Assembly: GCA_018261905.1 (NCBI GenBank)
Contig: JAGTRU010000005.1
Coordinates: 62,001-126,000, forward strand
DNA length: 64,000 bases
Direction: 5' to 3'
DNA from: Pseudomonadota bacterium
GTDB taxonomy: Bacteria; Pseudomonadota; Gammaproteobacteria; Burkholderiales; Rhodocyclaceae
A program made the translations under genes and the position numbers. The number at the start of each line of letters is the position of its first letter. Within the stretch, counting starts at the first letter, position 1. The notes under the pieces are model-generated. The model was not told the origin of the DNA and searched no databases. It saw only the letters and a list, made by a program, of their open reading frames with translations. This document shows, one piece after another, positions 1-59,102 of the stretch.

Positions 1-943
1 CGCCATACAGTGTGATCTTGCCGACCGGGGCTTGCGCCGCTTCGATGCGCGGCGTCGGGCGGATGGCGCCTTCACGGTAATCGTAGAAGCCGCGGCCGCT
101 CTTCCTGCCGTAGAAACCGGCATCGACCAGTTCCTGCTGGATGAGCGAAGGTAGAAAACGCGGGTCATGGTAGAAAGCGCGCCAGACCGAGTTGGTTACG
201 GCGAAATTGACGTCGTGGCCGATCATGTCCATGAGCTCGAACGGCCCCATGCGGAAACCGCCGGCTTCGCGCATGATGGCGTCGATGGTGGCGTAGTCGG
301 CGGCGCCTTCCTGCGCCAGGCGCAGCGCCTCGGCGTAGTAGGGGCGGGCAACGCGATTGACGATGAAGCCGGGTGTCGATTTGGCATGCACCGGCGTCTT
401 GCCCCAGGCGGCGGCCATGGCGAACAGGGTGGCGGCGACGGCCGGGTCGGTGGCCAGGCCGGAGACGATCTCGACCAGGGCCATGAGCGGGGCGGGGTTG
501 AAGAAATGCAGGCCGGCCAGGCGTTCCGGGCGCTTCAGGCCGGCGCCGATGGCGGTCACCGAGATCGACGAGGTATTGGTGCCGAAAAGGCAGTCGGGGC
601 CGACAATGGCTTCCAGGTCGGCGAACAGTTTCTGCTTGGCTTCCAGGTTTTCGACGATGGCTTCGACGACCAGCGCGGCATCGGCCAGGTCGTTCAACTG
701 CCCGGCGGCGCTCAATTGTGCGCTGGCAGCGGCGGCCGCGGCCGCCGACAGTTTGCCCTTGTCGGCCATTTTGGCGAACTGGGCGCGAATGCCGGCGACC
801 GCCTGCGCGGCGGCGCCCGGCCGGCTGTCGAGCAGCTTGACCGGGTGGCCGGCAGCGGCTACCACCTGGGCGATGCCGGCGCCCATGGCTCCGGCGCCGA
901 TGACGGCGATGACGGTAGTTGGAGGGAGGGAATGGCTGGTCAT
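1..943 (-). CDS. paaH: 3-hydroxyacyl-CoA dehydrogenase PaaH, 3' end cut by the window edge
   Basis: About 314 N-terminal residues are visible; the family is roughly 500 residues, so the C-terminus lies off the left edge. The start reads [21 protein letters not shown], with the Rossmann GxGxxG motif (GAGAMG) and the following AQVVAAAGH of NAD-dependent 3-hydroxyacyl-CoA dehydrogenases. In phenylacetate degradation this enzyme oxidises 3-hydroxyadipyl-CoA to 3-oxoadipyl-CoA in the cytoplasm. It is the last visible gene of a minus-strand paaN-paaG-paaH run, separated from paaG by an intergenic inverted repeat. The specific PaaH name (PaaC in Pseudomonas nomenclature) rests on this context; a general fatty-acid 3-hydroxyacyl-CoA dehydrogenase is the alternative. 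Confidence 0.85.
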
Positions 944-963
944 TTTTTGGCAGTCGATTTGAA

Positions 964-1039
964 ACGCAGAGGCGCTGAGGCGCAGAGGAAAGCGCAAGGA
1001 AAAATTCGATCTTCTCTCGGCGCCTCCGCGCCTCTGCGT
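964..1039. repeat. Long imperfect inverted repeat between paaH and paaG
   Basis: The left arm at 964-987 begins ACGCAGAGGCGC and the right arm at 1016-1039 ends GCGCCTCTGCGT. The 24-nt arms pair at about 22 positions around a 28-nt loop. The same element, with different internal sequence, lies at 1856-1930 on the other side of paaG, and a shorter relative is at 43386-43501. It would form a strong hairpin in the paa transcript. Elements built from CGCAGAGG units are dispersed intergenic repeats in several betaproteobacterial genomes (from memory). Confidence 0.85.
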
Positions 1040-1048
1040 CTGATCAAA

Positions 1049-1843
1049 TTATTCACCGGAAAACCTCGGCGCACGTTTTTCCATGAAGGCGGCGACGCCT
1101 TCGGCGTAATCCGGGCTCCAGCCCAGTTCGCGCATGAAGCCGCCTTCCATCGATAGCTGCTGCTCCAGCGTGTGGCCAGGGGCGGCATGCATGGCTTGGC
1201 GGGTACGGACCAGGGCCTTGGTCGGGGCGGCGGACAGTTGTTTGGTCAGGGCGTCGATGCGGGCGGGGAATTCGGTATCCTCGATGCATTCCCAGATCAG
1301 GCCCCAGGCGGCGGCCTTTTCGGCCGGCAGCTTGTCGGCGAGCAGGGCGAGGCCCATGGCGCGCGCCATGCCGATGCGCTGCGGCAGGAACCAGGTGCCG
1401 CCAGTGTCGGGGATCAGGCCGATTTTGGAGAAAGCCTGCAGGAAGGAGGCGGACTTCATGGCGACAACCAGGTCGCAGGCCAGCGCCAACGAGGCGCCGG
1501 CCCCGGCGGCGATGCCATTGACCGCGGCGATGGTCGGCACGCGCAGGTTCTGCAGGCGCAGGATCAGCGGCTTGTAGTTGGCTTCGACGATATTGCCGAT
1601 GTCCGGCATTTTGCCGTTGATGCTGGCCATGTCCGGGTCGGCCAGATCCTGGCCGGCACAGAAGGCGCGCCCGGCACCGGTCAATACCAGGACGCGGATG
1701 CTTTTGTCGGCCTGGACATGATCGAGCGCGCTGCGCAGTTCGCCGTGCATGGCGCCGGTGAAGCTGTTCAGCTTGTCGGGGCGGTTCAGGGTGAGGCGGG
1801 CGATGCCGGCTTCGACTTCAAAGATGATGTTTGCAAAGTTCAT
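1049..1843 (-). CDS. paaG: 1,2-epoxyphenylacetyl-CoA isomerase PaaG (enoyl-CoA hydratase/isomerase family)
   Basis: This 264-residue crotonase-fold protein begins MNFANIIFEVEAGIARLTLN. It has the CoA-binding FCAGQDL and the oxyanion-hole segment GIAAGAGASLALACDL. The segment LIPDTGGTWFLPQRIG carries the catalytic Asp typical of PaaG-type isomerases rather than the Glu pair of ordinary hydratases. PaaG converts ring-1,2-epoxyphenylacetyl-CoA to the oxepin-CoA and later moves a double bond in the beta-oxidation-like steps. It lies between paaN and paaH on the same strand, and both flanking gaps hold related long inverted repeats. Length is normal for the family (about 262). Confidence 0.92.
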   Translation of the reverse strand: MNFANIIFEVEAGIARLTLNRPDKLNSFTGAMHGELRSALDHVQADKSIRVLVLTGAGRAFCAGQDLADPDMASINGKMPDIGNIVEANYKPLILRLQNLRVPTIAAVNGIAAGAGASLALACDLVVAMKSASFLQAFSKIGLIPDTGGTWFLPQRIGMARAMGLALLADKLPAEKAAAWGLIWECIEDTEFPARIDALTKQLSAAPTKALVRTRQAMHAAPGHTLEQQLSMEGGFMRELGWSPDYAEGVAAFMEKRAPRFSGE

Positions 1844-37354: not shown

Positions 37355-39577
37355 ATGAACCGGGTTTCCAAACTCAAACTTTACGACATAGCCAGTCGCA
37401 CGGTCTTGACCGTGACGCCGGATACGCCTCTGGAAGAGGCGATCAGCCGCTTCGCCGAGACCCACTTTTCATCCCTCATCGTTGTCGACAACGACAAGCC
37501 GGTGGGCATCGTCACCGAGCGCGATCTGGTGCGCCTGATGTGCCTCGGCTCGGCCGACAAGCGCCCGGTGCGTGCCGTGATGAGTGCGCCGCTGATGACG
37601 GTGCCCTACGATCTCGACTTTTCCACGGCCCAGGTGATGATGGCCAATTGCGGCATCCGCCATCTGGTGCTGGTCGATGCCGCGGGGCAGTTGTGGGGGC
37701 TGGCCAGCGAAACCGATTTTCGACGGCATCTCGGCAGCGGCCTGCTGACGCTGATCCAGGATCTCAATACGGTGGTCGACCAGGGCGGCAAACTGATCGC
37801 GCCGGAAATGCCCCTGGCCTTTGCCCTGGAAACCATGGCCTCGTGCCGGCTGGACCATGTCATCGTCGGCCGCGCCGGACGGGCCGAAGGCATCCTGACC
37901 GAACGCGATGTGCCCGATCTGCTCGCCCGCCATGTCGATGCGCAGGCGGTGACGCTGGGCCAGGTAATGACCCAGCCGTTGGCGACCATCGGCATCGATG
38001 CCTCGATCGATGAGGCGGCCAAGTTGCTGGAACGGCATGGCATCCGCCACCTGGTGGTGGTCGATGCGACGGGGGGATTCGTCGGCGTGCTCAGCCAGCA
38101 CCGCATGCTGGAACGGCTCGGTGTGGCGCTGATGGGGCAGAGCCGGATCCAGCTTGAAGATCGCATGAGCATGGTGCTGGAAGCGACCGGCGTCGGCACC
38201 TGGGAATTCGACAACCAGCGGCACAGCCTGGCCTGCAGCCCGGCCCTCGAGAGCATGATCGGCACCCCGCCCGGGGCGGCGGACGATGGCCTGGATGCCG
38301 TCCTGCAGCTCCTTGAAACGGATGATCGCGAATGTTTGCGGGCCTCTTTCGATGCCATGCTGCAGGGCCAAAGCGAGCGTTTTTCCGTCGATTGCCGGAT
38401 TCGCAACGGCGATCATGGCTGGCGCTGGGTATCCTGGCGCGGCAAGGTGGTCGAACGTGACAGCGAGGCCAAACCGGTGCATTCGGCCGGGGTGGTCATC
38501 GATATTTCGGCCCAGAAGGCTTCGGAAGAGCTGTTGCGCAAAAGTGAAGCGCGCTTTCGCGGCTTGATGGAGAAAGTTCCGTTGGCCCTGGGCCAGATCA
38601 ATGCCCGGGGCGAGGTGGTTTTCATCAACGCGCATTTCGCGGCGCTTTTTGGCTACAGTCAGGCAGAACTGCCCAACCTCGCCCGGTGGTGGGAACTCGC
38701 CTATCCGGATGCCAATTACCGCGCCTGGGTCATCGATTCCTGGGACGAAGCGGTGCGCCGGTCGGTGGTGGGGGGCGGCACGCTGCATCCGCTCGAATAC
38801 CGGGTCACCGGCAAGGATGGCCGGCAACGGCTGGTCGAAATTTCCGGGATCGCGCTCGGCGACGATTTTCTCGCCATTTTCATCGATGTCACCGAGCGCC
38901 GGCAGCAGCAGGCCTTGCTCGAATTCAGCAATGCCATCCTGCAGCGCATTTCGGTGGAAAGCGGGCTGAGCGATATTCTCGATTTCATTGCCCGGCAGAT
39001 CCAGGCTACCGAGCCCGATATGCTGTGTTCGGTACTCCTTCTCGACGACAGCGGGCAGCATCTAATGCATGCCTCGGCCCCCGATTTGCCGGCCGACTAC
39101 ACGGCGGCCATCAACGGGGTCGCCATCGGGCCCCAGGTCGGTTCCTGTGGCACCGCCGCCTACACCAAGGAAGCGGTTTTTGCCGCCGACATCGCCAGCG
39201 ATCCGCATTGGGCCGCTTACCGAGAACTCGCCCTCGGCCACGGCCTGGCCGCGTGCTGGTCGTCGCCGATTTTCGCCACGTCGGGCAAGGTGCTCGGCAC
39301 TTTTGCCGTTTATTGGCGCCAGCCGCGCCCCGAAGTCAGTCCGCTCAACCGGCGCTATGTCGAGACGGCAACGACGCTGGCGGCGATCGCCATCGAGAGT
39401 GCGCAGCGCGATGGCGAATTGCGCAACCGGATCGCCGAGCTGCGCCGCTGGCAACAAGCCACCCTGGGACGCGAGGGTCGGGTGATGGAACTGAAACGCG
39501 AGGTCAATGCCTTGCTCGCCCGGCTGGGCGAAGAACCGCGCTACGAAAGCGTGCTCGGCAGCGGGGGGGCGGCATGA
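37355..39577 (+). CDS. Sensor protein with four CBS, two PAS and one GAF domain
   Basis: 740 residues, start [20 protein letters not shown] (GGGAGGGGG upstream). Four CBS repeats (about 1-265: [20 protein letters not shown] and [20 protein letters not shown]) form two Bateman pairs, which usually bind adenine nucleotides. Two PAS domains (about 270-400 and 400-525), a GAF domain (about 535-690) and a C-terminal coiled-coil tail rich in Arg/Glu follow ([20 protein letters not shown]). No kinase, cyclase or other output is present. Its stop overlaps the start of the hybrid kinase gene (ATGA), so it is probably an accessory input to that kinase. Cytoplasmic. Confidence 0.85.
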
Positions 39578-42500
39578 CAGCACGTTTCGGCGTTTGGCGG
39601 CGGTGCCGGTGGCTCGCTGCGCTACTCCTGTTCGCCGCCTCGACGGTGACGGCCGGGGCGGTGCCGGGGCGGGTTGTCGTTGCCCTGGACGACAACTACC
39701 CACCCTACATGTTTCGCGACAACGATGGCGAGTTGAAGGGCTATCTGCTCGATCTCTGGGCCTTGTGGGAAAAACAGACCGGCATCAAGGTCGATCTCGC
39801 GGCCAGCCAGTGGGCCCTGGCTCAGCAACGGTTCGCCGAGCAGCGGGCGGATGTCATCGATACCATTTTCAAAACCCCGGAACGCGAAAAACAGATGGAT
39901 TTCTCGCCGCCCTATGCCGACATCCCGGTTGCCATTTTCGTCCATCGCAGCATTCAGGGCATCGATGCGCCGAAGACCCTGAAGGGTTTTGTCGTCGGCG
40001 CCAAGCAAGGGGATGCCTGCATCGACCAGCTAGCCGCAAAGGGGGTGAGCGGCATCGCGGTTTACGCCAGCTACCAGGCCATGGTCGCGGCGGCAATGGC
40101 CGGCGAACTGCGGCTGTTCTGTGTCGACCAGCCGCAAGGGCATTTCCTGCTGGCCCGGGCCGGTGTCGATAAGGATTTTCGCGAAGCCTTCACGCTCTAT
40201 ACCGGGCAGGTGCACCGCGCTGTCCGCAAAGGCAACACGGCGCTGCTGGCCACCGTCAATGCCGGTTTCGCGGCGATTCCCGAAGCCGAGGTGGAGGCTT
40301 TGCGCGACAAGTGGATGGGCCGGCCGTTGACGACGGCGAGCTATGCCGGTGAACTGATCTACGCACTGTTGGCGGTCGGCGGACTGCTGCTCTTGTTGTT
40401 CGTCTGGAATCTGCTGTTGCGTCGCCAGGTGCGCCGCCGGACCTGCCAGCTCGATGCCGAGCGCGAGTATCTGAGCGCCATCGTCGATGGGGTCGGCGGC
40501 CACATCTTTATCAAGGGGCTGGATTACCGCTATCAATTCGCCAACCGTGCAACCTGTGAGCTATTCGGGCGGCCGCTCGAGCGGGTGATCGGTTGCGGCG
40601 ATGCAGAATTTTTCGAGGCGCCATCGGCCGCCCTCCTGCATGCAAACGACCGCCGCGTCATCGAAGAGGGCGAGAGTTTGCGCCAGGTCGAGAGTCAGGT
40701 GGCACGGATCGGCGGCGAGACGCGCAGCTATCTGACCATCAAGGTCCCGATGCGCGATGGCACCGGCCGGATTACCGGCCTGCTCGGGGTGTCGACCGAT
40801 ATTACCGAGCAGCAGCGGGCCGAGAAGGCGGCGCGCGATGTGGGCGACGAGCTGGCGGCGACCCTGAATGCGATTCCCGACCTGTTGTTCGAGCTCGATG
40901 AAGAGGGCCGCTATTGCCAGGTCTGGAGTCAGGCGCGAGAAGCCGACCTGATTGCCGCGCAGCAGCAGTTGATCGGGCATACGGTGCACGAGATGCTGCC
41001 GCCGGACGCCGCGCACACGGTGCAGGCGGCGATTGACGCGGCGGCGCAGAGCGGGGCCAGCCGTGGGCAGCAGATCTGCCTGCCGCTGCCGGCCGGTCAG
41101 CAATGGTTCGAATTGTCTACCGTGCGCAAGGCGGGCGACGCACAGCCGCGGCGTTTTCTCGTGCTGTCGCGCAATATCAGCGACCGGGTGGTCGCCCAAC
41201 AAGCGATGGCGATCGCCCAGAACGAAGCAAAACGTTTGCTCGAACAGACCGACTGCACCCGCCAGGCGCTGCTCAGCATGCTTGAAGACCAAAAGCTGAT
41301 CGAGAGCCAGTTGCGCAAACTTTCCCAGGCCGTCGAGCAAAGCCCGGAAGCCGTGGTGATCGCCAATCTCGACGGCAGTGTCGAATACGTCAATCAGGCC
41401 TTTGTCGATTCGAGCGGTTACAGCATCGACGACGTGCGGGGCAGGAACATGCGCCTGGTGCAGTCGGGAATGACGCCGCGCCGTACCTACGAAGAAATGT
41501 GGGGCAATCTGGCGCTCGGCCGGGTGTGGTCGGGGCAGTTGATCAACCGGCGCAAGAACGGGGAAATTTTCTACGAGCATGCCATCATGTCGCCGATTCG
41601 CCAGGCCGATGGCAAGGTGACGCACTATCTGGCGGTCAAGCAGGATATTACCGAGAAGAAGCTGATCAACGAGGAGCTCGATCGCCACCGCCACCACCTG
41701 GAAGAACTGGTCGAGCAACGGACGCGCGAACTGGCTGCGGCGAAAGAGGCGGCGGAAGTGGCGAATCGGGCGAAAAGCGCTTTCCTGGCCAACATGAGCC
41801 ACGAGATCCGGACGCCGATGAATGCCATCACCGGCCTCACCCACCTCCTGCTGCGCGGCTCGCTCGATGCCGAACAACAGGACAAGCTGGGTAAGATCGG
41901 GCAATCGGCCGAGCACCTGATGGAAGTGATCAACGACATCCTCGATATTTCCAAGATCGAGGCCGGCAAGCTGGAACTCGAAGCCGTCGATTTCGCCCTT
42001 GATGAATTGTTCGAGCGGGCCCTGGCGCTGGTGCGCGACAAGGCCCAGGCCAAAGGGCTGCCTCTGCAGCTAGCGGCCTTGCCCGAGATCGGCGGGCGCG
42101 TGCGCGGCGATCTGACGCGGCTGACCCAGGCCCTGGTCAATTACCTGGGGAACGCCATCAAGTTCACCAGCCGGGGTTCGATCGGCTTGCGTTGCCTGCT
42201 GCTCGACGGGGGCGAACAGCAGGTGCGGTTGCGCTTCGAAGTCAGCGATACCGGCATCGGTATTGCGCCGGATGCCCTCAATCGCTTGTTCACCGCTTTT
42301 GAGCAGGCCGACAATTCGACTACCCGGCTCTACGGCGGGACCGGGCTCGGCCTGGCCATTACCAAGCACCTGGCCGGCCTGATGGGGGGCGACGCCGGGG
42401 TCGATAGCGTGCCCGGCGAAGGCAGCACCTTCTGGTTCGTCGTCCGTCTGGAGCGGGCCGGGCCGGGGATGGCGGCGCGGCCGGTGGGGGCGCCGCTGGA

Positions 42501-43314
42501 AATTCCCGAGTCGCAGGTGCGGCGCCGGCATGCCGGTAAACGCATCTTGCTGTGTGAGGATAACCCGATCAATTGCGAGGTTGCCCTCGAACTGCTGCAA
42601 TACGTCGGCCTGCAGGTCGATGTCGCGGTGAATGGTGCGGAAGCCGTGCGCCGGATGGAGAATGCGGCTTGCGATCTGGTCCTGATGGATATGCAGATGC
42701 CGGTGATGGACGGCCTGGAGGCTACCCGGCGCATTCGGGCCTTGCCCGGCATGGCCGCTTTGCCCATTCTGGCGATGACCGCCAACGTCTTTGCCGAAAA
42801 CCGCCAGGCCTGCCTGGCGGCCGGAATGAACGATTTTGTCGCCAAGCCGGTCGATCCCGATACGCTCTACGGCCTGCTGTTGAAGTGGTTGCCGCCGGCG
42901 GCGCCAGGCCCCGCGGCGGAAGCGGCGGTAGCGGCCGCCGTCCGGCCGCCCGTTGTTCCGGCGGCTGGCGAGTTGCCCGGCGTCGATCTGGCCAGCGCCT
43001 TGAATATCACCCGCGGCAGCCGGGAACGCCTGATGCACTTGCTGCACATGTTCGTGACCAAGCATGGCGACGATGTCGGGCAACTGCGTGCCGCCCTGGC
43101 CGGCAATGACCGCGATGGCGCCGGGCGGATCGCCCATTCGCTGAAGGGGGCGGCCGGGACGCTCGGCATCAGCCGGGTCTATGAGCTGTCCACGCAGCTC
43201 AACGCGCTGTTCCGGGCCGAGGCGCCGGAGGCCGAGCTGGAGGCGGAAATTGCCCGGCTTGAGGTGGAACTGGCGCTGGTGTGCGCCGGGATCGAAGGGC
43301 CGGCGCCCCGCTGA
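39574..43314 (+). CDS. Hybrid sensor histidine kinase with periplasmic solute-binding domain
   Basis: 1246 residues. A signal peptide (about 1-28) leads into a family-3 solute-binding domain ([20 protein letters not shown] to about 250). A transmembrane helix follows ([20 protein letters not shown]), then three PAS domains, then a kinase with H box [19 protein letters not shown] and ATP motifs DTGIGI and [10 protein letters not shown] receiver follows ([13 protein letters not shown]) and finally an HPt domain ([13 protein letters not shown]). All phosphorelay residues are present, making a BvgS/EvgS-like unorthodox kinase. It overlaps the CBS-PAS-GAF gene by ATGA. No cognate response regulator gene follows; the single-domain regulator at 34347 is the nearest. 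Confidence 0.92.
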
Positions 43315-43514: not shown

Positions 43515-45836
43515 TTACTGGCGGTTCTGGATTTCCTCGATATAGCCGAGCATGCCGGTCTTCAGGTTGCCGGCATTGCCTTCGTCGGTGTCGATATGCA
43601 TGGCCAGGCGATAGGCCGGATTGACGCGGACGACGACGTCGCCGAAGATCAGTTCGCGCTCGCCTTCAACCCGGACGCGGACGACGTAGTTGTCGCGAAC
43701 GCGGAAACGCATGGCGTCTTCCGGCGTCATGTGGATATGGCGCTGGGCGCAGACCACGCCGCGTTCGATGGTCGACGTGCCATACGGACCTTCGAGGGTG
43801 ATGCCCGGCGTATTGGCGAGATCGCCGGACTGGCGGATGGGCGGCTGGATGCCGACCTTGAATTGCTCGGTCATGGCGATTTCGACCTGGGTTTCCTTAC
43901 GCGTCGGGCCGAGGACGCGGACATTGGCGATGCGTCCCTTGGGGCCGACCAGGTGCACCTTCTCGGCGCAGGCGAACTGGCCGGGCTGCGACAGTTCGTG
44001 TTCCGGCGTCAGTTGGTGGCCGGGGCCGAACAGTTTCTCGACATCTTCCTGCGCCAGATGCACGTGGTGGGCCGAGATTTCGATCGGAATCGGCAGCGCT
44101 TCCTCTTTCTTGGCTTCCAGGATCAGCTCGTTGCGTTCGATGGCGCGCAGCGTTTCCCAGGCGACCAGGCGTTCGTCGTCGTTGGCGACGACGAGGATGG
44201 TGACCGGCGAATCGTCGGCCGAGATGATGGCGTGCGAGCCGAAGTGGCCGAGATTGCGGTTTTTTTCCTCGTCGAGCTTGATGCCCATGTAGCCAAGGCT
44301 CTGGCAGGCCAGGCTGCGCACCGTCGAACTGGTTTCGCCGATATCGCCGGTAAAGGCCAGGACGTCGATGCCGCCCATCGCCGCGACGTAGGCGCCGATA
44401 TTCTTGCGCACCTGGTAGCAGAAGGCCTTGTGGGCGAGCAGGGCGCGGTGGTGGCCATCCTCGGCCGCCGCCTCGATTTCGTGAATGTCGCTGGAAATGC
44501 CGGAAATGCCCTTCAGGCCGCTCTCGGTATTGATCAGGTTGGACAGCGTTTCCGGCGACATCTGATGTTTTTCCATCAGGTGGATCATCACCGCCGGATC
44601 GATGCTGCCCGAGCGGCTGGGCATGATCAGGCCGTCGGTCGGCGTCATCCCCATCGTCGTATCGACCGAGCGGCCGTGGTCGATGGCGCACAGCGAAGCG
44701 CCGATGCCGAGGTGGCAGGAGACGATTTCCAGTTCGCCGAGCGGGCGCTTGAGGACTTCCGCCGCCTTCAGCGAAACATAGCGGTGCGACGTGCCGTGGA
44801 AGCCGTAGCGGCGAATGCCGTGCTGTTTGTAGAGCTCGTAGGGCAGGCCATAGAGATAGGCGTAGGGGGCGAGCGTCTGGTGGAAGGCGGTGTCGAACAC
44901 GGCAACCTGCGGCAGGTTGGGGAAGTGCTGGCTGGCGACGCGGATGCCGGCGACGTTCATCGGGTTGTGCAGCGGCGCGAAAATCGACAGTTCCTCGATA
45001 TCGGCAATCACCGCCGGGGTGATCACCACCGAACTGGAGAACTTGCTGCCGCCATGGACGACGCGATGGCCGACCGCGGTGACGTCTTCCGGGTGGAAGG
45101 TGAAGGCTTCGCCCAACAGGGCGGTCGCCTCGCGCATTACCGTAAACAGGTCGGAGAGCTTGAACGGCGCGTGTTCCAGGGTTTTCCGCTGGGGTCCGAC
45201 GGTGACCGTGATCTGGGCGACATCCCGGTCGGCATTGTCGATGATGCCGTGGATGTCGGCGCCGCTGTCCAGCGTGTCGTAGATGCCGAAGTGGATCTGG
45301 CTGATGCCGACATTGAGTACCACGACCTTGCCCGGCGTATTGGTATTCAGCGACAGGGCGTAGGGATCGCTCGACTTGGCGACGGCCCGGGCCTGGGCGG
45401 TGACGATGTCGACCGACATGGTGCGGGTACGCTCGGCCAACTGGCGGGAGAGGTAACCGACCGCCTTGGGGTTGGTCAGGATATGGCTGTTGAAGACGGC
45501 CTGCGGGATCATCAGCACGAAGCAGCGATTGCCGGCGATGACGTCGGCGACGATGCGGTCGCCGGTGAGCAGCGACATCACGCCGAACACGTCACCCGCC
45601 TCGAGCTGGCTGATGACGCTGCGGCTGCCGGTGTTGTCGGTCATCGAAATCTCGGCGTGGCCGCTGATCATGACACCGATGAACTTGCCCTCGTCGCCGG
45701 TTTCCAGGATGGCCTCGTTGCCCTCGTAGGTGGCCAGGCGGGATTTGATGACGATTTCCTCGACCTTGTCGGCCGGGAAGTTCTCGAACAGGCGGACCTG
45801 CTCAAGGAAGAAGCGCTTTAGGTCAATTTCGCTCAT
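43515..45836 (-). CDS. Fusion of cNMP-binding domain, acetate kinase and PduL phosphotransacylase
   Basis: 773 residues in one frame. Residues 1-150 are a cNMP-binding-type beta-barrel ([39 protein letters not shown]). The phosphate-cassette Glu (normally FGE) is Val, but R94 is kept. Residues 169-560 are acetate kinase: R258 in [24 protein letters not shown] (H347, H351), R408 in [10 protein letters not shown] and E501 in GDIGETSS. The N-terminal phosphate loop reads NVGISQIHF instead of the usual NxGSSSLK. Residues 581-773 are PduL with metal-binding HHVHL (590-593) and RHIHM (700-702). Together they could turn acetyl-CoA, phosphate and ADP into acetate, CoA and ATP. Weak GCGAGAAAC precedes ATG 45836. 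No separate ackA or pta is nearby. Confidence 0.92.
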
Positions 45837-50561: not shown

Positions 50562-53500
50562 ATGGTTCGTAATCCTGCATTCAAATTGCGCCGGGCCTCT
50601 GTTCTGGCAATTGCTGTCAATCTGGCATTCAACCCATCGGTTGTGCTGGCCCAGCAAGGAGGCGTCGTCGTCAATGGCCAGGTGGTGATCAGCCAACCGG
50701 CTGCCGGGGTGACGAATATCCGGGCCAGCAACGGCGCGATCATCAACTGGCCCAAATTCTCGATCGGGGCGGGGGAACTCGTCCGTTTTGTCCAGCCGTC
50801 GGCTTCCAGCGCCGTATTGAACCGGGTGGTCGGGACGGAAGCTTCGCAGCTTCTCGGCCAGTTGCAGGCCAACGGCCGGGTCTTCCTGATCAACCCCAAC
50901 GGTATCGCGATCGGCGCCGGGGCGCGTATCGATACCAATGGTTTTATCGCTTCGACCCTGGATATCGCCGATGCCGATTTTCTGGCCGGCAAGCTCAAGT
51001 TCTTTGCCGCCGGCGCCGCCGGAAATATCGTCAATCAGGGCCTCATCTCGGTCGGGCCGGACGGTCGGATTGCGCTGATCGCGCCGAATATCGAAAACAG
51101 CGGCATTATCCAGGCGCCCGGCGGCCAGATTCTGTTGGCGGCCGGGCGTCGGATCGAAATATCGAGCCTGGATTTTGCCGGGGTGTCCTTCGAAGTCCAG
51201 GCGCCGACCGATGCCGTGCTCAACCTCGGGAAACTGCTGGCCGACAACGGCGTGGTCCAGGTCTTTGCCGGCAATTTGCGGCACAGCGGCGTCATTCAAG
51301 CCAATCGCCTGACCCGGGATGGCGATGGGTCGATCCGTCTGACCGGCAGCAACGAAGTCGTCCTGACCTCGGACAGCGTAACCCGGGCTGATGGCCGGGT
51401 TGGCGGCGCCATCACCATCCAGAGCAACGGTACGACGCGGGTGGCCGGCGAAATTTCGGCGCAGGGTTCGGTCGGCAAAGGCGGCGACATTCGTGTGCTG
51501 GGCGAACGGGTTGCCGTGGAGTCTGCGGCGCATCTGAATGCCTCCGGCGCCAGCGGCGGTGGCCAGATTCTCGTCGGCGGCGATTTCCAGGGCAAGAATC
51601 CCGAGGTTCACAACGCCCGCCGGGTGTTCGTCGGGGCGGGCGCTCGGCTAATCGCCGATGCCACGCTCAAGGGCGATGGCGGGCGGATCATCGTCTGGTC
51701 GAATGAAAACACCCGCTACTTCGGCAGCTTGGCGGCGCGTGGCGGACCGCAGGGCGGCCAGGGCGGCTTTGCCGAAGTGTCGGGCAAGCAGAATCTGCAA
51801 TTCGCGGGGGCTGCCGAGTTGGGGGCGCCGCTCGGTTCAAGCGGGTTTCTGCTGCTCGATCCGCTCGATATCATCCTCTCGGCGAGCGGTGGCGTGATGC
51901 CCATCGCGGCCGACGAATTCAGTGATTTCTCCGGCAATGTCGTGACCGTCTCGCCGAGCGGTTTGAATGCGGTGGGCGGCAATGTCATTTTGCAGGCCAA
52001 TCGCGACATCTATTTCAATACCGCCTTTGCCTTCACCGGAAGCAGCTTGACGGCCACCGCCAATGGCGATCCGCGGCTCAACGGCAGCATTTTCCTGAAT
52101 CGGGACCTGTCCTCCAGCGGCGGCGCCATCAACCTCAACGCGGCCACGCTGAGCGGTAGCGGCGGGATTGCCACGGCCGGCGGCGCGGTGAATGTTGTGG
52201 TCGCCAACGGCATGTCCTATAGCGGCGCCATTGCCTCGGGCGGCGGCAATGTTAGCCTGACTTCGACCAGCGGCAGTATCGCCAATGCCAATGTCAATGC
52301 TGGTGCCGGGGCGGTCACGGTTACTGGTCAGAACGGCGTTTCCTACGGCAGCTTCGTGTCTACCGGCAGTGTCTCGCTCAATGCGCCAGCCGGCAGTCTC
52401 AATCAAAATACCGTGAGTGCCGGGACGGCCAATCTTGAAGCCTCCGGCTCAATCAACAGCACGGTCAAGGCGGCGCGGATCAATGCCACCTCGACCGATT
52501 CAAGCGTTCAACTTTATAACGCGAACGGACAGCCGTTGCGGCTGGGCACCATCAGTGGTGCCTCCGGTGCCTACTTTTATTCCACGGCCGGTATCGAGCA
52601 GGTGGCCGGCGGGTTGGTGAGTGCCCCCTATGTGCGTTTCTCCGGCGAAAACGCCGCCTTCGCCCTTGGCTCTAGCGGTGCGCCGCTCAATGTCGCAACG
52701 GCGAACTTGTCCCTGACCAATCTGGCGGCCCCGGCCCATATTGCCGTGGCCGGATCGACCCTCGACCAGCTAAGCCTGCAGGGGGAACTGGCCGGCCTGG
52801 CGGGAAGCACGGTCAGTGGGGCGGCCAATCTCGCTTCGTTGAACCTGACGGCGGGCAATGGCGTTCTCAACGTCGAGGCGACGTCCAGTGGCGGCTTCGG
52901 CAGCGGCTTCGGGCTCGAGGTTGCCGACGCCGCGCTGAATATGACCACCCTCAATATGCCGACGGCCAGCGTTTCGCTGATCGCCGGCGGCGGTGGCGTC
53001 GTCCTGGGCGCCGCCAGCGTCGGCAGCCTCAATATCGTCGCCAGCGGCTCGATCAGCGCCACCTCGGTGACGGCTGCCGGCAATATCAGTGCGACGGCCA
53101 ATCGCTGCGCTTCCTTCTATACCCTGTGCACCTTGCGTAGCGACATTAGCGCGACGAGTCTGACGTCGACCGGTGGCAGCATCACGCTGACCAATTACGA
53201 CAATGGCAATCTCGCTGTCGGTACGTTGAATGCCGCCGGGAGTGCAAATCTCAATATCGGCCGCGCCTATTACAGTTATACGGATAACAACTACCATGTG
53301 ACGACCAACGCCGTCACGCTCGGCAGCGTCACGACGGGAGGCTCGTTCTCTCTCGCCAAGCCGGGCACCGGGGACGTGACGCTGTCCGGCCAACTGAGCG
53401 CCGGTGGGTCGGCGAGCCTGAGCAGCGGGACGTCCTACTACGATTACGCCTTGCGCACCTCCGTGCGCAACGCCGCCAACCTGTCGGTGGCCGGCATTCA

Positions 53501-56500
53501 GGCGGGCAGTTACATCTCGCTCAGCAACAGCGGCAGCGGGGCCATCACGGCGAGCGGCAATCTGGTAGCGACGGGTTCGAGTCTGTCGGTCAATGCGCAA
53601 GACGGTGCCGTCATTGCCGGCGGCGTCCATGCCGCCGGTACCTCGGCCAACCTGACGGCTGGCAACGGTGTCATGAGCTTGGGGACCGTGGCCACGGCAA
53701 ACGGCGCGATCTCGGCGACAGCCAGCGGCGATCTGACCTTCGCTTCCCTGGCCGCCGGCGGCAGCAACAGTTCGGTCAGCCTGACGTCTTCGGGCGGTAG
53801 CGTCCGGACGAGCCAGAACACTGTCGGCAGCGACATTGCCGCCACCGGCGATGTATCGATCAGCGCCGGCGGGGCGATCGGCGACGGCAGTTTTGCCCAT
53901 CCGCTGGATATCCTGGCCGGCGCCAACGGCACGGTCACGTTGTTGGCCGGAACGCATGTCGGGGCGGTCGGCTCGCCGGTGACCGTCGATACCAACGGCA
54001 GTGTCAGGGTGGCCGCCGGCAACGGCCAGTTCCATGTCGCGGTGCAGGATGTCGCGGGAACGGCCAAGGCAGTCTCGGCCATCGACCTGAGTGCTTCGGC
54101 GGCCGGCATGGGGGTCGCGGGTACCTCGAATTTCACGGCGCAAAATTTGTCGGTCAATGCGACCAGCGACGGTTCCGTGATCACCATCGGTGATGTCGTG
54201 CCAGCCGCCGCCACACCCTTCAACCTGTTCCGTTTCACGGCCACGGGCAGCGGATTGACCTTCGGGAATGTCAACCTGGCAAGCTCCGGCTACAACCAGT
54301 TCGAAGCCTTCGCCAATGGTCCGCTGACCGGCACGGGCAATATCGTTGCCGGCAATATCGTGCTGGCCGCCGGGGCCGGTGCGGTGAACGTCGGTAACGT
54401 GACCTCGTCCGGCGCCGTGGGGAACAAAATCGACATTTCCGGCGGCGATATTGTCACCGGCGACCTGTCCGGACCAGCGATCGTGGTGAATGGCGACAAT
54501 CTCTTCCTCGGTACGGTCGCTACGTCCGGGACCCATCGCGGCTACCCGTATAACTACGTATACATTCCCCGCCTGGGCACGTATCAATACCTGCTCGACG
54601 AACTAAGCTTGAGCGCCGCGGGCGACCTCGTTACCTCGGGGAACGTCAGCAGTGCCACCTCGGCGCGGCTCAGCGCGGGCGGCAATCTGACCGTGGCGGA
54701 GGGGGGCGGCAGCATCACCGCCGGCACCACTTCTGTCTGCTGCACCTATTATTCCGATACCGCCCAGGCCTGGGCGGGTGGGGCCGGCACGCTTTCGGTG
54801 GCGACGGTTTCCGGCTTCAACGTCGATGTCAAAGGCGGTACGGTCGATTCCGGCAACCTGAGCGCGGTCAATAGTCTTGGCTTGGCCGGCGCTACCCTGA
54901 CCACCGGCAATCTGCTGGCCGGCGGCAATATCAATGTGTACGCCAGCACCGCGCTCAACGCCGGGACGCTGCAATCGACCGGCGGCAGCGTCAGTCTCGA
55001 GGCGGCGACGCTGAATACCGATACGGTGCAGGCAGCCGGCAATCTGAGCGTGACCGGCACCAACTTCAATACCGGCAACCTGCAGGCCGCCGGTACCTTG
55101 AACCTGACGGCGACGGCGGGATACGCCCCGGGGGCGCTGAGTCTGACCGCCGGCAATCTCGTGTTGAGCGCGCAGAATGGCAATATCGACCTGAGCGATA
55201 GTGTGGTGACCACGCCGACGGCAAGCCTGAACGCCAGCGGTTCGATTCTCGGTACCCTGAGCAATACGAGCAATCTGACACTCGTGACGGGGGGCGCTTT
55301 TGACATTACGTCGACGGTGGCCCTCACCGCCGTAGCGGTAACGGCCCAGGGCGATAGGCTGGGGGGGACTTCGAGAATCAGTTCGCCTTCCGCCGAGCAG
55401 AACTTCACCTACACGGCCGACGGCTCGACGCTTGGCCTCAACTATTCTTCGCTGGTCGGTGTGGACCTGCGTTATAGCGAGGCCTCGCCGACGGTTACCG
55501 CCATCAACGTGTCGGCCAACCTGGCGACCGGCAGTCATCTGGATGTCGACGGCAACGCCGCGCGCTTGACGGCGGACGCGGTTGCGCTCGGCTCGGGCAA
55601 CGTCGATCTGAGAACCGGCGGCGACATCGACCTGACCTCGGTCGTCACCGGTTCGGGGAGCGTTACCGCCCATTCCTCGGCAGGCAATATCAATGTCGAG
55701 CAGGTGACGACGAGCGCCTCGGCCGTCAATCTGACCGCCGACGCGGGGTCGATCCTGGCGGTCGGCGGCCAGACCTATCAGATCGACAACGCCAATGGTG
55801 ATGTGACGCTGAGCGCCGGCCTGGGCAGTGTCGGGGCGAGCGCTTCGCCACTGCAGATCAACGGGGCACAGAGCCTGGCGGTGACCGGGCTCAACGAAAT
55901 CCTGATCGATGTCGCGGGCCGCGCTCTGAGTAATCTCGATATCACCACCAATGCCAGCGGCAGCGGGGCGATCGCCATCACCAACAGCAATTACAGCGAA
56001 TTCGCCCTGACCCGGGAGGGCGCGGCGGGCGCCCAGTACCTGGCACTTGGCCCGGTCACGCCGGGCACCAACGGGGATTTCGCGCTGCGCGCCCGGGATG
56101 GCGGGATCAAGGTCGTGGGCGATATCAGTGTCAGGAATCTGCTTCTCGATGCCAATGTGGACAATACCAACACCGCCGGCGACATCCTCATGCAGGCCGT
56201 GGACGCTGCCAGAAGCATCGTGGCTACCGGCAATACAACGATCAAGGCCGGTCAGGACGTGATTATCGCGGCCGGTCAGGGGAGTGGTCAGAGCGTGACG
56301 TTGGATATCGGCGGCACGTCGTCGTCGACTTCGATCAGCGCCGGTCGCGATGTGCGGGTGGAGGGCAATGGCGGCGGCGCCGTGGTGAACCAGAATTCAA
56401 CTTTCAACGGAAACTCGCTTAACGCTGGCCGGGATATCCGGATCACCGGGGGGGCCAGCGCTGTCGCCGGGGCCAAGGCCGCCGTCAATGCGAGCGGCAG

Positions 56501-59102
56501 TCAGGTATTCATCGCTGGCGGCGACCTGATCCTGCAGGGCGGTAGCGCCGATGGCTCCGTGGCCGAGGCGGTGGCTGCCGGAGCGCAGACGATCCAGGCC
56601 AATAATCTTGTACTGCAGGGTGGCGCTGGAAATTCGGCCTTCGCCGTGCTCAAGGGCCTGAATCAGGAGGCGACCCAGATTCGGGGCAGTCTGACCGTTC
56701 AGGGCGGCCTGGGAAGCGGCGCCTATGCGGAAATCACAGCTGCCGGGTGGCAGACGCTGGGGACGCAATATACCTATTACTACAATCCCACCGACCAGGT
56801 CCTGGTCAAGGGCGGCGCCGGCGATGGCGCCTATGCGTCGATCGGCGCCGCGGGAAGCCAGAGCATCTACGCCGCCGGGGATATTTCCATCCTGGGCGGC
56901 TCGGGCGCCGGCGCCTACGCCGAGATCGCAACCTCGGGGGGCGACCAGGTCATCGGGACGCAATCGACTTACTACTACGCGCCGACGGTCAATGTCCTCG
57001 TCGAAGGGGGTACGGGAGCCGGTGCCTACGCTTCGCTGAGGTCGGCCGGCAGTCAATCGATTCAGGCCGGGCAGGACATCACCGTCCGCGGCGGCAGCGG
57101 TGGCGGGGTCGCCAGTACGGCCTGTGCCACCGGCGGGGCCGGTGCTTTTGCGGAAATTTGCGCGACCGGCACGCAGACCATCGGCAGCAGCGCCAATTCG
57201 TATTACACCGATCCGACCGCCAATATCCTGGTGGTCGCAGGTAGTGGCGGCAAGGCGCGGATTGCCGCGGGCGGCGACCAGAGCATCAATGCCGGCGGCA
57301 ATATCACGCTCATCGCCGGTGCGGTGGCGGGCATGACCGCCAGTATCGAATCGGGGGCTTTCCAGACGGTCGGTAACGCGACCAATGCTTATTACGGCAA
57401 TGATGCCACCGGCAATATCCTGATCCAGGGCGGTTCGGCCAGCGGTGCCGCCGCCTGGCTGGGGGCTGTCACCGGTCAGAAGGTCGATGCCGGTGGCGAT
57501 ATCACGCTGCTTGCCGGGGCGGCCGACGGTGCTTACGCCCGCATCGCCACTAGCCAGGGGACGCAGGTGGTGGGCAATCTCGGTTCGTCCTATTATTTTG
57601 ATCAGACCAATCAGATTACATTGACCGGTGGTAGCGGGGTTGGCGCCAACGCGGGGTTCTACTCCGGTGGTGGCCAGTCGGTGTATAGCGCCGCCGGCAT
57701 CAACATCACGGGCGGCACCGGGGATCAGGCGGGGGCTGGCATGGTCGCGGCGGGATCGCAAGTAGTGCGGACTTTCGGTAATCTGACGCTCAGCGGCGGC
57801 AGTGTGGCGAGTGCCGATCCCGGTCAGGCCGCTGGCGGTAATCTACGCGCCGCCAGCGCGGTGGCGACCGGCAGCAACGAAACCTTGATTGAAACCACCG
57901 GGAGCAGCCAGACCATCGAGGTCGGCGGCACACTCAGGCTGAGTGGCGGCGGTGCCGGTTCCTTTACCCGGATCAAGCAAGATGCGGTCGAAGGGAGTCA
58001 GACCATCAGCGTCGGCGCTTCCCTAAGTATTGAGAATGTCACGGCAAATGCCAACGATACGGGAATTGCCGCCACCGGCGGCGCGAACTTCCAGTCCGTC
58101 GCGGTCAATGGGGCGCTCGTCCTCGACAATCAGGGAGGCCATTCGGTCTTTCTGCAGTCGGACGGTGCGCAAGCGCTGACCGCCGGCAGTCTGGATGTCC
58201 GCCTCGGTTCCACCGTGGATAGCGCGACAACGGTCATTTCGGCCGGCGACAACCAGGATATCGTCCTCACCGGAAACGGGACGGCCGGCTCGGCTTTCCT
58301 GAATATTTTCAATCGGAGTAGTGCTGTCGAGGCCATGGCACAAGTTTCGGCCGGGGGTAAGCAGACCGTGAAAATGGATTACGGCTCAGCGGGCAAGCTT
58401 CAGGTTGGCGATGTGACCGGCCAGGGGGCAACGCGCTTGACGGCCGGTGGTGACCAGGAACTGGTGGTCGGCAGTTTGCTGGTCCAGGGAGGGGCGGCGG
58501 TGGGTAGCGATGCCAAGATCACGGCCGGGGCAAACATGCTGATCAGTGCAATTGCCGGGGCCGTCGAGGTTCGCGGTGGGGCGCAGGGCTCGGCTGAGAT
58601 CGATCCGCCCAATATCAGTTTGGTGTCGAATGGCGATGTGGTGGTTCAGGGCGGCAGCAGCACGCTGGCGCACGCCCTGATTTCCGGTTTCGACATCACG
58701 TTGGCGGCGACCAATGGCAATGTCGCGCTCACTGGCGGCCCGGTTGCCGGGGCATTTGCCAACATTCTCGCGGCGGGGAGTCTCAATATTTATGGTTCCG
58801 GCAACCTGGCCATTACCCCGAACGCCGGCGGCGCTTCGGCGACGGCGGCCGCGCCGGGCGGCAACAACATCGTCGTCGGCGGTAGCTGCATCGGCTGTGC
58901 GAGCGGGCTGGTCGGCACTTACAACATCACGGTCGGGCCTGTGCTGAGCGATCCGGTGCAGAATGCGCTGGCCAATTCGGTGCCCAGGCAGATGCTTTCG
59001 CTGCTCGACGGCTTGCAGGGTATCTACGGCATCCTGAAGTTGCCGCAAGATGGTGAAATAACTGTCGATCTGACACGGCGGCGTTTGCCGCAATGCAATT
59101 GA
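50562..59102 (+). CDS. Two-partner-secretion exoprotein (filamentous haemagglutinin-like TpsA)
   Basis: 2846 residues. After a signal sequence (ASVLAIAVNLAFNPSVVLAQ), residues about 35-290 form the TPS domain, with NWPKFSIGAGELVRFVQ, LLGQLQANGRVFLINPNGIA and GARIDTNGFIASTLDIAD. This domain targets the chain to its TpsB pore. The rest is Gly/Ala/Ser-rich beta-helix with hundreds of short strands. Five 63-76-residue repeats carrying a Tyr-Tyr(-Tyr) motif lie at 56.7-57.7 kb. Cysteines are rare and mostly paired: CASFYTLC, VCC, SCIGC near the C-terminus, and a penultimate Cys (PQCN). GAGGGGGCGG precedes ATG 50562. A FecR protein and TpsB follow. Probably an adhesin or biofilm fibre. Confidence 0.92.
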   Translation: MVRNPAFKLRRASVLAIAVNLAFNPSVVLAQQGGVVVNGQVVISQPAAGVTNIRASNGAIINWPKFSIGAGELVRFVQPSASSAVLNRVVGTEASQLLGQLQANGRVFLINPNGIAIGAGARIDTNGFIASTLDIADADFLAGKLKFFAAGAAGNIVNQGLISVGPDGRIALIAPNIENSGIIQAPGGQILLAAGRRIEISSLDFAGVSFEVQAPTDAVLNLGKLLADNGVVQVFAGNLRHSGVIQANRLTRDGDGSIRLTGSNEVVLTSDSVTRADGRVGGAITIQSNGTTRVAGEISAQGSVGKGGDIRVLGERVAVESAAHLNASGASGGGQILVGGDFQGKNPEVHNARRVFVGAGARLIADATLKGDGGRIIVWSNENTRYFGSLAARGGPQGGQGGFAEVSGKQNLQFAGAAELGAPLGSSGFLLLDPLDIILSASGGVMPIAADEFSDFSGNVVTVSPSGLNAVGGNVILQANRDIYFNTAFAFTGSSLTATANGDPRLNGSIFLNRDLSSSGGAINLNAATLSGSGGIATAGGAVNVVVANGMSYSGAIASGGGNVSLTSTSGSIANANVNAGAGAVTVTGQNGVSYGSFVSTGSVSLNAPAGSLNQNTVSAGTANLEASGSINSTVKAARINATSTDSSVQLYNANGQPLRLGTISGASGAYFYSTAGIEQVAGGLVSAPYVRFSGENAAFALGSSGAPLNVATANLSLTNLAAPAHIAVAGSTLDQLSLQGELAGLAGSTVSGAANLASLNLTAGNGVLNVEATSSGGFGSGFGLEVADAALNMTTLNMPTASVSLIAGGGGVVLGAASVGSLNIVASGSISATSVTAAGNISATANRCASFYTLCTLRSDISATSLTSTGGSITLTNYDNGNLAVGTLNAAGSANLNIGRAYYSYTDNNYHVTTNAVTLGSVTTGGSFSLAKPGTGDVTLSGQLSAGGSASLSSGTSYYDYALRTSVRNAANLSVAGIQAGSYISLSNSGSGAITASGNLVATGSSLSVNAQDGAVIAGGVHAAGTSANLTAGNGVMSLGTVATANGAISATASGDLTFASLAAGGSNSSVSLTSSGGSVRTSQNTVGSDIAATGDVSISAGGAIGDGSFAHPLDILAGANGTVTLLAGTHVGAVGSPVTVDTNGSVRVAAGNGQFHVAVQDVAGTAKAVSAIDLSASAAGMGVAGTSNFTAQNLSVNATSDGSVITIGDVVPAAATPFNLFRFTATGSGLTFGNVNLASSGYNQFEAFANGPLTGTGNIVAGNIVLAAGAGAVNVGNVTSSGAVGNKIDISGGDIVTGDLSGPAIVVNGDNLFLGTVATSGTHRGYPYNYVYIPRLGTYQYLLDELSLSAAGDLVTSGNVSSATSARLSAGGNLTVAEGGGSITAGTTSVCCTYYSDTAQAWAGGAGTLSVATVSGFNVDVKGGTVDSGNLSAVNSLGLAGATLTTGNLLAGGNINVYASTALNAGTLQSTGGSVSLEAATLNTDTVQAAGNLSVTGTNFNTGNLQAAGTLNLTATAGYAPGALSLTAGNLVLSAQNGNIDLSDSVVTTPTASLNASGSILGTLSNTSNLTLVTGGAFDITSTVALTAVAVTAQGDRLGGTSRISSPSAEQNFTYTADGSTLGLNYSSLVGVDLRYSEASPTVTAINVSANLATGSHLDVDGNAARLTADAVALGSGNVDLRTGGDIDLTSVVTGSGSVTAHSSAGNINVEQVTTSASAVNLTADAGSILAVGGQTYQIDNANGDVTLSAGLGSVGASASPLQINGAQSLAVTGLNEILIDVAGRALSNLDITTNASGSGAIAITNSNYSEFALTREGAAGAQYLALGPVTPGTNGDFALRARDGGIKVVGDISVRNLLLDANVDNTNTAGDILMQAVDAARSIVATGNTTIKAGQDVIIAAGQGSGQSVTLDIGGTSSSTSISAGRDVRVEGNGGGAVVNQNSTFNGNSLNAGRDIRITGGASAVAGAKAAVNASGSQVFIAGGDLILQGGSADGSVAEAVAAGAQTIQANNLVLQGGAGNSAFAVLKGLNQEATQIRGSLTVQGGLGSGAYAEITAAGWQTLGTQYTYYYNPTDQVLVKGGAGDGAYASIGAAGSQSIYAAGDISILGGSGAGAYAEIATSGGDQVIGTQSTYYYAPTVNVLVEGGTGAGAYASLRSAGSQSIQAGQDITVRGGSGGGVASTACATGGAGAFAEICATGTQTIGSSANSYYTDPTANILVVAGSGGKARIAAGGDQSINAGGNITLIAGAVAGMTASIESGAFQTVGNATNAYYGNDATGNILIQGGSASGAAAWLGAVTGQKVDAGGDITLLAGAADGAYARIATSQGTQVVGNLGSSYYFDQTNQITLTGGSGVGANAGFYSGGGQSVYSAAGINITGGTGDQAGAGMVAAGSQVVRTFGNLTLSGGSVASADPGQAAGGNLRAASAVATGSNETLIETTGSSQTIEVGGTLRLSGGGAGSFTRIKQDAVEGSQTISVGASLSIENVTANANDTGIAATGGANFQSVAVNGALVLDNQGGHSVFLQSDGAQALTAGSLDVRLGSTVDSATTVISAGDNQDIVLTGNGTAGSAFLNIFNRSSAVEAMAQVSAGGKQTVKMDYGSAGKLQVGDVTGQGATRLTAGGDQELVVGSLLVQGGAAVGSDAKITAGANMLISAIAGAVEVRGGAQGSAEIDPPNISLVSNGDVVVQGGSSTLAHALISGFDITLAATNGNVALTGGPVAGAFANILAAGSLNIYGSGNLAITPNAGGASATAAAPGGNNIVVGGSCIGCASGLVGTYNITVGPVLSDPVQNALANSVPRQMLSLLDGLQGIYGILKLPQDGEITVDLTRRRLPQCN
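56700..57700 (+). repeat. Five degenerate 63-76-residue repeats with Tyr-Tyr motifs inside TpsA
   Basis: The Tyr motifs begin at 56775, 56970, 57198, 57387 and 57588, giving spacings of 65, 76, 63 and 67 codons. Each unit reads roughly Q-(T/V)-(L/I)-G, then YYY or YY, P-T, V/I-L-V, GG-G-GA-A, and Q-S-I-A-G-DI. The repeats are divergent at DNA level, so they are old. Confidence 0.7.

Follow-up and report, generated by a model that had tools for sequence, protein, structure and literature searches.

The 64,000-nucleotide stretch of Rhodocyclaceae DNA analysed here (the window) carries a gene for a single polypeptide of 773 residues, in which a cyclic nucleotide-binding (CNB)-like sensor, an acetate kinase-like domain and a PduL phosphotransacylase follow one another (Table 1). 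The explanation that we favour, at about even confidence, is a PduL phosphotransacetylase of the response to the storage polyester polyhydroxybutyrate (PHB), equipped with a sensor and with a middle domain that is blind to nucleotides and binds an acyl-phosphate. The PduL part would catalyze the reversible conversion of acyl-coenzyme A (acyl-CoA) and phosphate to acyl-phosphate and CoA. The other two parts would be control domains, i.e., the N-terminal CNB-type barrel and an acetate kinase fold that would make no use of ATP and would still bind acetate or acetyl-phosphate. A build-up of PHB would titrate the repressor PhaR and thereby turn on the fusion gene along with the phasins; acetyl-phosphate would then be sensed or held by the middle domain, and this domain and the barrel would jointly tune the PduL reaction, on which the proportions of acetyl-CoA, CoA and acetyl-phosphate would depend. 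Four steps here are our inference: that ATP is no longer used, that PhaR controls the gene, that there is a sensing role, and which way the flux runs.

The open reading frame (ORF) starts with the ATG at 45836, its stop codon ends at 43515, and there is no internal stop. All three domains lie in this one frame, as had been proposed in a first-pass annotation made from the letters alone, and all exceed the Pfam gathering cut-offs (PF00027, 53.2 bits against 27.5; PF00871, 437.6 against 22; PF06130, 257 against 25); no DNA-binding domain was found by Pfam in the chain. No stop or frameshift separates the domains: the ORF is uninterrupted in its own genome (4.9 Mb, 68 contigs), and a near-full-length match is present in 60 of the 297 genomes scanned in the same family, so the fusion is not an assembly artefact. 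The further proposal, that kinase and PduL together make up the full pathway from acetyl-CoA to acetate with formation of ATP, holds for the presence of the domains and for the intact zinc and phosphate ligands of PduL, but is not supported for ATP formation by the kinase domain, in which ATP-site residues are replaced.

The replacements were followed in an alignment of 91 family rows (90 distinct) with 35 comparison kinases, using the numbering of the Methanosarcina enzyme (MtACK). The comparison set includes AckA of the window's own genome, of its relatives and of other families, the relatives L137, L138 and L139, and the T. maritima enzyme. None of the 91 rows has the canonical residue at the equivalents of S10, S12, K14, N211, G239, G331 and E384, which are canonical in 35, 34, 34, 32, 35, 35 and 35 of the comparison kinases, respectively; the equivalence at Glu384 takes its numbering by inference from the ends of the 1g99 alignment. 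Arg285 is kept in 7 rows as compared with 33 of the 35 comparison kinases, and Asn7 is kept in 88 rows. The phosphate loop of the window protein reads NVGISQIHF in place of the usual NxGSSSxK, an oddity already recognized in the first-pass annotation, and besides this loop five more ATP-site equivalents are replaced (N211, G239, R285, G331, and E384). Across the family, most positions have one prevailing new residue (e.g., S12 is replaced by Q in 88 rows and K14 by H in 85), whereas S10 is replaced by I (45 rows), L (34), V (8) or others. The acyl side is kept, with R91, H123, D148, F179, H180, P232 and R241 in all 91 rows, V93 in 90 and L122 in 86; all nine are found in 85 rows and eight of the nine in the other 6. 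A different acyl substrate, which had been considered, is not indicated by a pocket in which the acetate residues are kept. In MtACK, R91, H123, D148, H180 and R241 belong to the acyl side and Glu384 to the ATP side.

As far as the aligned residues can tell, the kinase half has most likely lost the use of ATP. In MtACK, N211 and G331 contact the phosphates of ATP, and single changes at N211, G239 or G331 lower the specific activity 6- to 200-fold (PMC4390882, cited from excerpts, as are the other papers below). The scores of all three domains would also suit a bifunctional enzyme, in which an ATP-dependent acetate kinase and PduL channel acetyl-phosphate under the gate of the CNB domain. The retained acyl site and fold agree with such an enzyme, as do the score of the chain with the ackA subfamily model of NCBIfam (TIGR00016, 417.1 bits against a cut-off of 293.4) and the relative L137, in which the same architecture has canonical motifs. 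Nonetheless, we consider it distinctly unlikely, because the ATP-contacting loops are rewritten in every row (LOOP4 in 84 of 91), single changes at three of the same positions lower the activity of MtACK 6- to 200-fold, and two other AckA genes are present in the genome.

The altered kinase domain is under purifying selection and does not have the appearance of a decaying one. The ratio of nonsynonymous to synonymous substitutions (dN/dS, Nei-Gojobori) in pairs with the window is 0.14-0.33 for this domain in 10 of 10 pairs, 0.06-0.14 for PduL and 0.11-0.45 for the sensor. Predicted alone, its structure is confident, with a predicted local distance difference test score (pLDDT) of 93, and the acetate kinase fold is predicted to be kept, with a template modelling (TM) score of 0.90 to the solved acetate kinase 1g99. 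A middle domain that binds no ligand and is a scaffold or linker keeping PduL in an oligomer would be compatible with the loss of the ATP site and with PduL being the most conserved of the three domains (mean pairwise identity over the 91 rows 0.88, as against 0.80 for the kinase and 0.73 for the sensor). A mere scaffold, however, would have no need of the seven acyl-site residues that are invariant in 91 rows, and we regard this alternative as decidedly improbable.

In a quick maximum likelihood tree of the kinase domain, the 63 altered rows retained after thinning fall on one side of a branch with a support of 100 in the Shimodaira-Hasegawa-like approximate likelihood ratio test, and L137 is their sister; in this tree the altered rows thus have one origin and form one clade. 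L137, from a genome of another class of the phylum (G977), has the same three domains, with 54% identity to the window protein over the full length, but canonical ATP motifs. Because the altered rows are one clade with this canonical-motif sister, the ancestor was probably a three-domain protein whose kinase was normal and whose ATP side was then rewritten once on the stem of the family; this ancestry is read from a single outgroup sequence and from a tree that was not bootstrapped. The ATP-making picture of the first-pass annotation fits this deeper relative.

Alternatively, the kinase might have switched its donor to pyrophosphate, polyphosphate or another compound and, with PduL, would interconvert acetate and acetyl-CoA without ATP. 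The pyrophosphate-dependent acetate kinase of Entamoeba histolytica is, like the window protein, altered at Asn211, Gly239 and Gly331 (PMC4390882, PMC5517563). The replacement residues of the window family are conserved in a kinase domain under selection, and Dechloromonas includes accumulators of polyphosphate and polyhydroxyalkanoates (PMC8630035). The residues themselves differ, in a comparison made by the descriptions in PMC4390882 and PMC5517563 rather than by sequence: the Entamoeba enzyme has Thr211, Ser239, Gln331 and an extra glycine in PHOSPHATE2, whereas the window protein has Ile, Pro and Asp and no insertion in HLGIGAS. Moreover, an Asp at 331 would place a negative charge near the phosphate site, PHOSPHATE1 is altered as well, and the excerpts on the Entamoeba enzyme mention no fusion. 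A switch of donor is, in our judgement, improbable; if it did occur, the Entamoeba enzyme would be joined by a further kind of acetate kinase that works without ATP. A more elaborate form, in which a donor-switched kinase and PduL, turned on with the PHB granules, would act as an ATP-independent machine between acetate and acetyl-CoA and join the polyphosphate and PHB cycles in Rhodocyclaceae, among which polyphosphate accumulators are known, is very unlikely.

The PduL half is most likely active. A solved relative is 5cuo, which we take to be the structure described in the PduL crystal-structure paper. The ligands and residues examined were taken from the crystal structure in PMC4784909, the numbering of which differs from that of the window protein by a constant offset of 543. 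The zinc ligands His591, His593, Glu652, His700 and His702 are conserved in 91 of 91 rows and His747 in 90, with one row gapped. Of 18 residues checked, zinc ligands among them, the window family shares 17 with this PduL, each in at least 90 of the 91 rows (at two of them one row has a gap, and at a third one row has Lys); unlike it, the window PduL is fused to two other domains.

In the sensor, the Glu/Arg pair of the phosphate cassette was judged by the rule known from CRP. Residue 86 is V in 70 rows, E in 11, A in 6, I in 3 and T in 1, and Arg94 is present in 73 of 91. The usual ring-binding Glu is therefore missing in 80 rows; Glu and Arg occur together in 10, mostly early-branching, and the window protein combines Arg with Val86, the second oddity that had been pointed out. 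The tree contains 10 of the 11 Glu rows, all on early branches; thinning removed the eleventh (L079). Since the Glu rows branch early and L137, too, has Glu in the position of the window's Val, the ancestor may have had a cyclic nucleotide ligand, which is doubtful for the window protein. The suggested control by cyclic AMP is weak in view of the 80 rows without Glu, although 10 rows keep both residues.

The gene is preceded by a palindromic element, the sole match to its pattern in the window. The consensus before the start codon, CTTTGCTGCANCGCAACAAAATGGTAGTCTT (74 rows), matches the PhbF/PhaR site TG[N]TGC[N]3GCAA that was footprinted in Herbaspirillum (PMC3206438), and the element resembles the PhaR site of R. 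sphaeroides, CTGCN3GCAG. Within 200 bp of upstream sequence, the core with one extra half-site is present in 78 of 81 rows, mostly near -65 (the misses being L035, L073, and L079), in comparison with a mean of 1.6 and a maximum of 5 in dinucleotide shuffles (200 rounds) and a mean of 2.3 and a maximum of 7 of 80 in stretches drawn at random from the real sequence of these loci. The bare core TGCN3GCA is likewise found in 78 of 81 (shuffles: mean 11, maximum 24), and the strict operator form in 43 of 81. The flanks diverge between relatives while the element stays, although related sequences are not independent. In the window's own genome, TTGYTGCN3GCARCA has 21 strand matches at 16 places, and the reversed control pattern has none. 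Three of these places precede Phasin_2 genes, the first base of the site being 63-80 bp from the ATG, and the gene for PhaR (PF07879) is about 1.7 kb away from one of the three; PhaR is present in 22 of 22 fusion-bearing genomes. At a fourth place, a PhaR-type palindrome lies 77 bp before a MaoC-PTB gene adjoining an AckA (L175; G000:C61:37286), and this other acyl-phosphate pair may share the same control. Patterns for FNR, CRP, NtrC and sigma-54 were each found in 0 of 77 upstream regions of 300 bp. In sum, the fusion gene is a probable member of the PHB regulon, as suggested by the motif and its placement. No PhaR core was found in the 250 bp upstream of the fusion genes of L138, L139 (starts approximate) and L158, or in 174 bp upstream of L137; the fabI gene preceding the L158 fusion has the core at -183.

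Several points weigh against the PHB-responsive PduL enzyme with two control domains. The window's own site is a weaker match, in the core only (GCAC, not GCAA), and a sigma-70 scan found no promoter at this element. Only 4 of the 16 motif places precede genes with an evident link to PHB or acyl-phosphates. Of 19 genomes that lack the fusion, 14 have PhaR as well; the repressor gene does not go along with the fusion, and for this reason its presence says little by itself. In the chain, the CNB phosphate cassette varies among rows, and Lys70 of PduL, a CoA contact (PMC4784909), is His in 81 rows and Ser in 10. Single substitutions in MtACK lower, rather than abolish, activity (PMC4390882), and replaced motifs are no proof of lost ATP use. 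Finally, in the structure prediction of the three-domain chain, which had been recommended as a check, the whole-chain AlphaFold model (32 rows) was poor (pLDDT 59) and was not used to place the domains against one another.

The genomic counts for PhaR also favour a reading in which the upstream element is a conserved core promoter or the site of another regulator and the gene is unrelated to PHB, as do the 12 of 16 exact motif places that lie before genes with no evident PHB link. The element ends, moreover, in a -10-like TAGTCT at what would be a promoter-like distance. We nevertheless consider this reading unlikely, because the palindrome TTGCTGC-N3-GCAGCAA agrees with the motif footprinted for PhbF (PMC3206438) and precedes the three phasin genes in the same genome, the reversed pattern gave 0 matches against 21, and the FNR, CRP, NtrC and sigma-54 patterns tried were missing from all 77 upstream regions.

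With regard to the metabolic setting, each of the two further AckA genes of the genome adjoins a PTA_PTB gene, the one on contig 61 being of the MaoC-PTB type, and two more PTA_PTB matches lie in long frames (C17 and C12). A separate AckA match is found in 20 of 22 fusion-bearing genomes, including the window's own; the other two are 76% and 74% complete. In a clustering that left out pairs of more than 92% identity and in which many flanks were truncated, no ORF cluster other than those overlapping the fusion itself was common to more than 25 of the 80 records (the window and 79 loci), and we therefore name no operon partner.

A scan of genome contigs returned 141 encoding stretches, the best 80 of which (79 loci) served as relatives; the nearest are from Dechloromonas and Azonexus. 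The search for the domain architecture that had been proposed recovered three-domain relatives in many Rhodocyclaceae-type genomes. In the same family, 66 of 297 genomes match at E <= 1e-90 and 231 do not; 60 of the 66 are near-full-length fusions, in 3 the AckA and PduL matches share one stretch but are separated by stops, and 3 have AckA alone. Among 399 genomes of the order, 27 match (8 full-length, all of the same family, and 19 AckA alone), and among 398 of the phylum, 40 match, i.e., the window's own genome, one full-length (G977), two two-domain AckA-PduL fusions and 36 AckA alone. The class of G977 yielded no further match at E <= 1e-105 in 289 genomes, and its order (199 genomes) one two-domain fusion (L157). 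As taxonomic groups were sampled, the true range of the fusion may exceed these counts. PF06130 was detected (E <= 0.001) in 22 of 41 genomes, at one place each and in 22 of 22 inside the fusion, with no free-standing PduL seen in the 41. In G024, a genome of the same genus that lacks the fusion, there is a match to its C-terminal end alone, over 49 residues at 57% identity (G024:C1:1542507-1542653), perhaps the remnant of a lost fusion gene.

Some relatives depart from the common form. L124 (G184:C59, 4821-9794) has two full-length fusion copies in tandem, both with altered ATP motifs and both with Asp at the Asn7 position. L125, L126 and L127 (genus g36) form a side lineage in which the same seven positions are lost and the replacements are partly different, with Arg at Gly331, Arg at Lys14 and Arg285 kept. 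In L118, L119 and L120 (genus g71, same bacterial family), AckA and PduL are separate adjacent genes with canonical kinase motifs.

Two-domain AckA-PduL fusions, with the kinase followed by PduL in one chain, are among the closest known arrangements (Polaromonas naphthalenivorans pPNAP02, WP_011798166.1; L138; L139; L157). L138, L139 and the Polaromonas fusion are 42-44% identical to the window protein, and L157 is 47% identical to L137. Unlike the window protein, they have no CNB domain in the matched stretch, and the ATP motifs of L138, L139 and L157 are canonical. Such a chain is already in public records under the name of a kinase, the Polaromonas protein being annotated as an acetate/propionate family kinase. 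In L158 (4233-8627, Polaromonas plasmid) the AckA-PduL fusion is flanked by fabI and a DUF3141 gene, and a gene for polyphosphate kinase 2 is found at a distance of about 3.5 kb. In L138 the fusion gene (1-1458, forward strand) has as its neighbour what is presumably a phosphoketolase-like gene.

More distant parallels exist for each control domain. In mycobacterial Pat a CNB domain is fused to a protein acetyltransferase, a barrel on an enzyme of acetyl metabolism as in the window; the Pat profile matches the window CNB weakly (E value 0.0012, below the curated cut-off), and its catalytic domain differs. The ROK repressors are sensors with an ASKHA fold, in which a kinase-like fold is used for sensing. 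The kinase-domain model has distant Foldseek matches to the ROK structures 5f7p and 5f7q at 9-10% identity, but the ROK repressors, unlike the window chain, are DNA-binding proteins. No account of the CNB-AckA-PduL architecture was found in the open-licence literature of PubMed Central, as judged from listings, and among the open-licence matches listed for pseudokinases none dealt with acetate kinase. The PhaR/PhbF-type site upstream of the fusion is an addition to the first-pass annotation.

If the kinase domain is indeed blind to ATP, automatic annotation goes astray: the chain passes the NCBIfam cut-off for acetate/propionate kinases and would be assigned an ATP-yielding step that it does not provide, and the error could pass into metabolic models of bacteria that store PHB and polyphosphate. 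An ATP-blind domain would also make this a clean case of a pathway fusion with one catalytic half turned into a control part, for which the canonical sister L137 is available for comparison.

Table 1. Features of the fusion gene and its upstream region (positions in the window; residue equivalents in Methanosarcina numbering)
Feature	Position	Strand	Basis
Single ORF, 773 aa: CNB-like sensor, acetate kinase-like domain and PduL	43515..45836	-	ORF call, Pfam, own genome
cNMP_binding (PF00027) barrel, residues 36-118	45483..45731	-	Pfam E 3e-14
Phosphate-cassette region, residues 84-98	45543..45587	-	Alignment of 91 rows
Acetate_kinase (PF00871) domain, residues 170-559	44160..45329	-	Pfam E 4.3e-131; predicted fold
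PHOSPHATE1, residues 175-182 NVGISQIH; Ser10, Ser12 and Lys14 equivalents replaced in 91/91	45291..45314	-	Alignment
PHOSPHATE2, residues 375-380 HLGIGA; Asn211 equivalent Ile 75, Val 14, Ala 2 of 91	44697..44714	-	
LOOP3, residues 404-414; Gly239 equivalent Pro 83, Ser 4, Ala 4 of 91; Arg241 equivalent 91/91	44595..44627	-	
LOOP4, residues 446-455; Arg285 equivalent His 79/91, Arg 7/91	44472..44501	-	
ADENOSINE, residues 496-503 TGDIGETS; Gly331 equivalent Asp 83, Glu 5, Arg 3 of 91	44328..44351	-	
Glu384 region, residues 551-555 ANDDE; equivalent (554) Asp 85, Asn 4, His 2 of 91	44172..44186	-	
PTAC/PduL (PF06130) domain, residues 584-758	43563..44087	-	Pfam E 9.3e-77
PhaR/PhbF-type site TTTGCTGCACCGCACCAAA	45885..45903	-	49-67 bp before ATG; sole pattern match in window

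Two neighbouring genes of the window may be mentioned. A large hybrid sensor kinase with SBP_bac_3, PAS, HisKA, receiver and Hpt domains (38686-43314, forward strand) is convergent with the fusion gene. Further along, an ORF of 2846 residues (50562-59102, forward strand) appears to resemble a filamentous haemagglutinin-type repeat protein.

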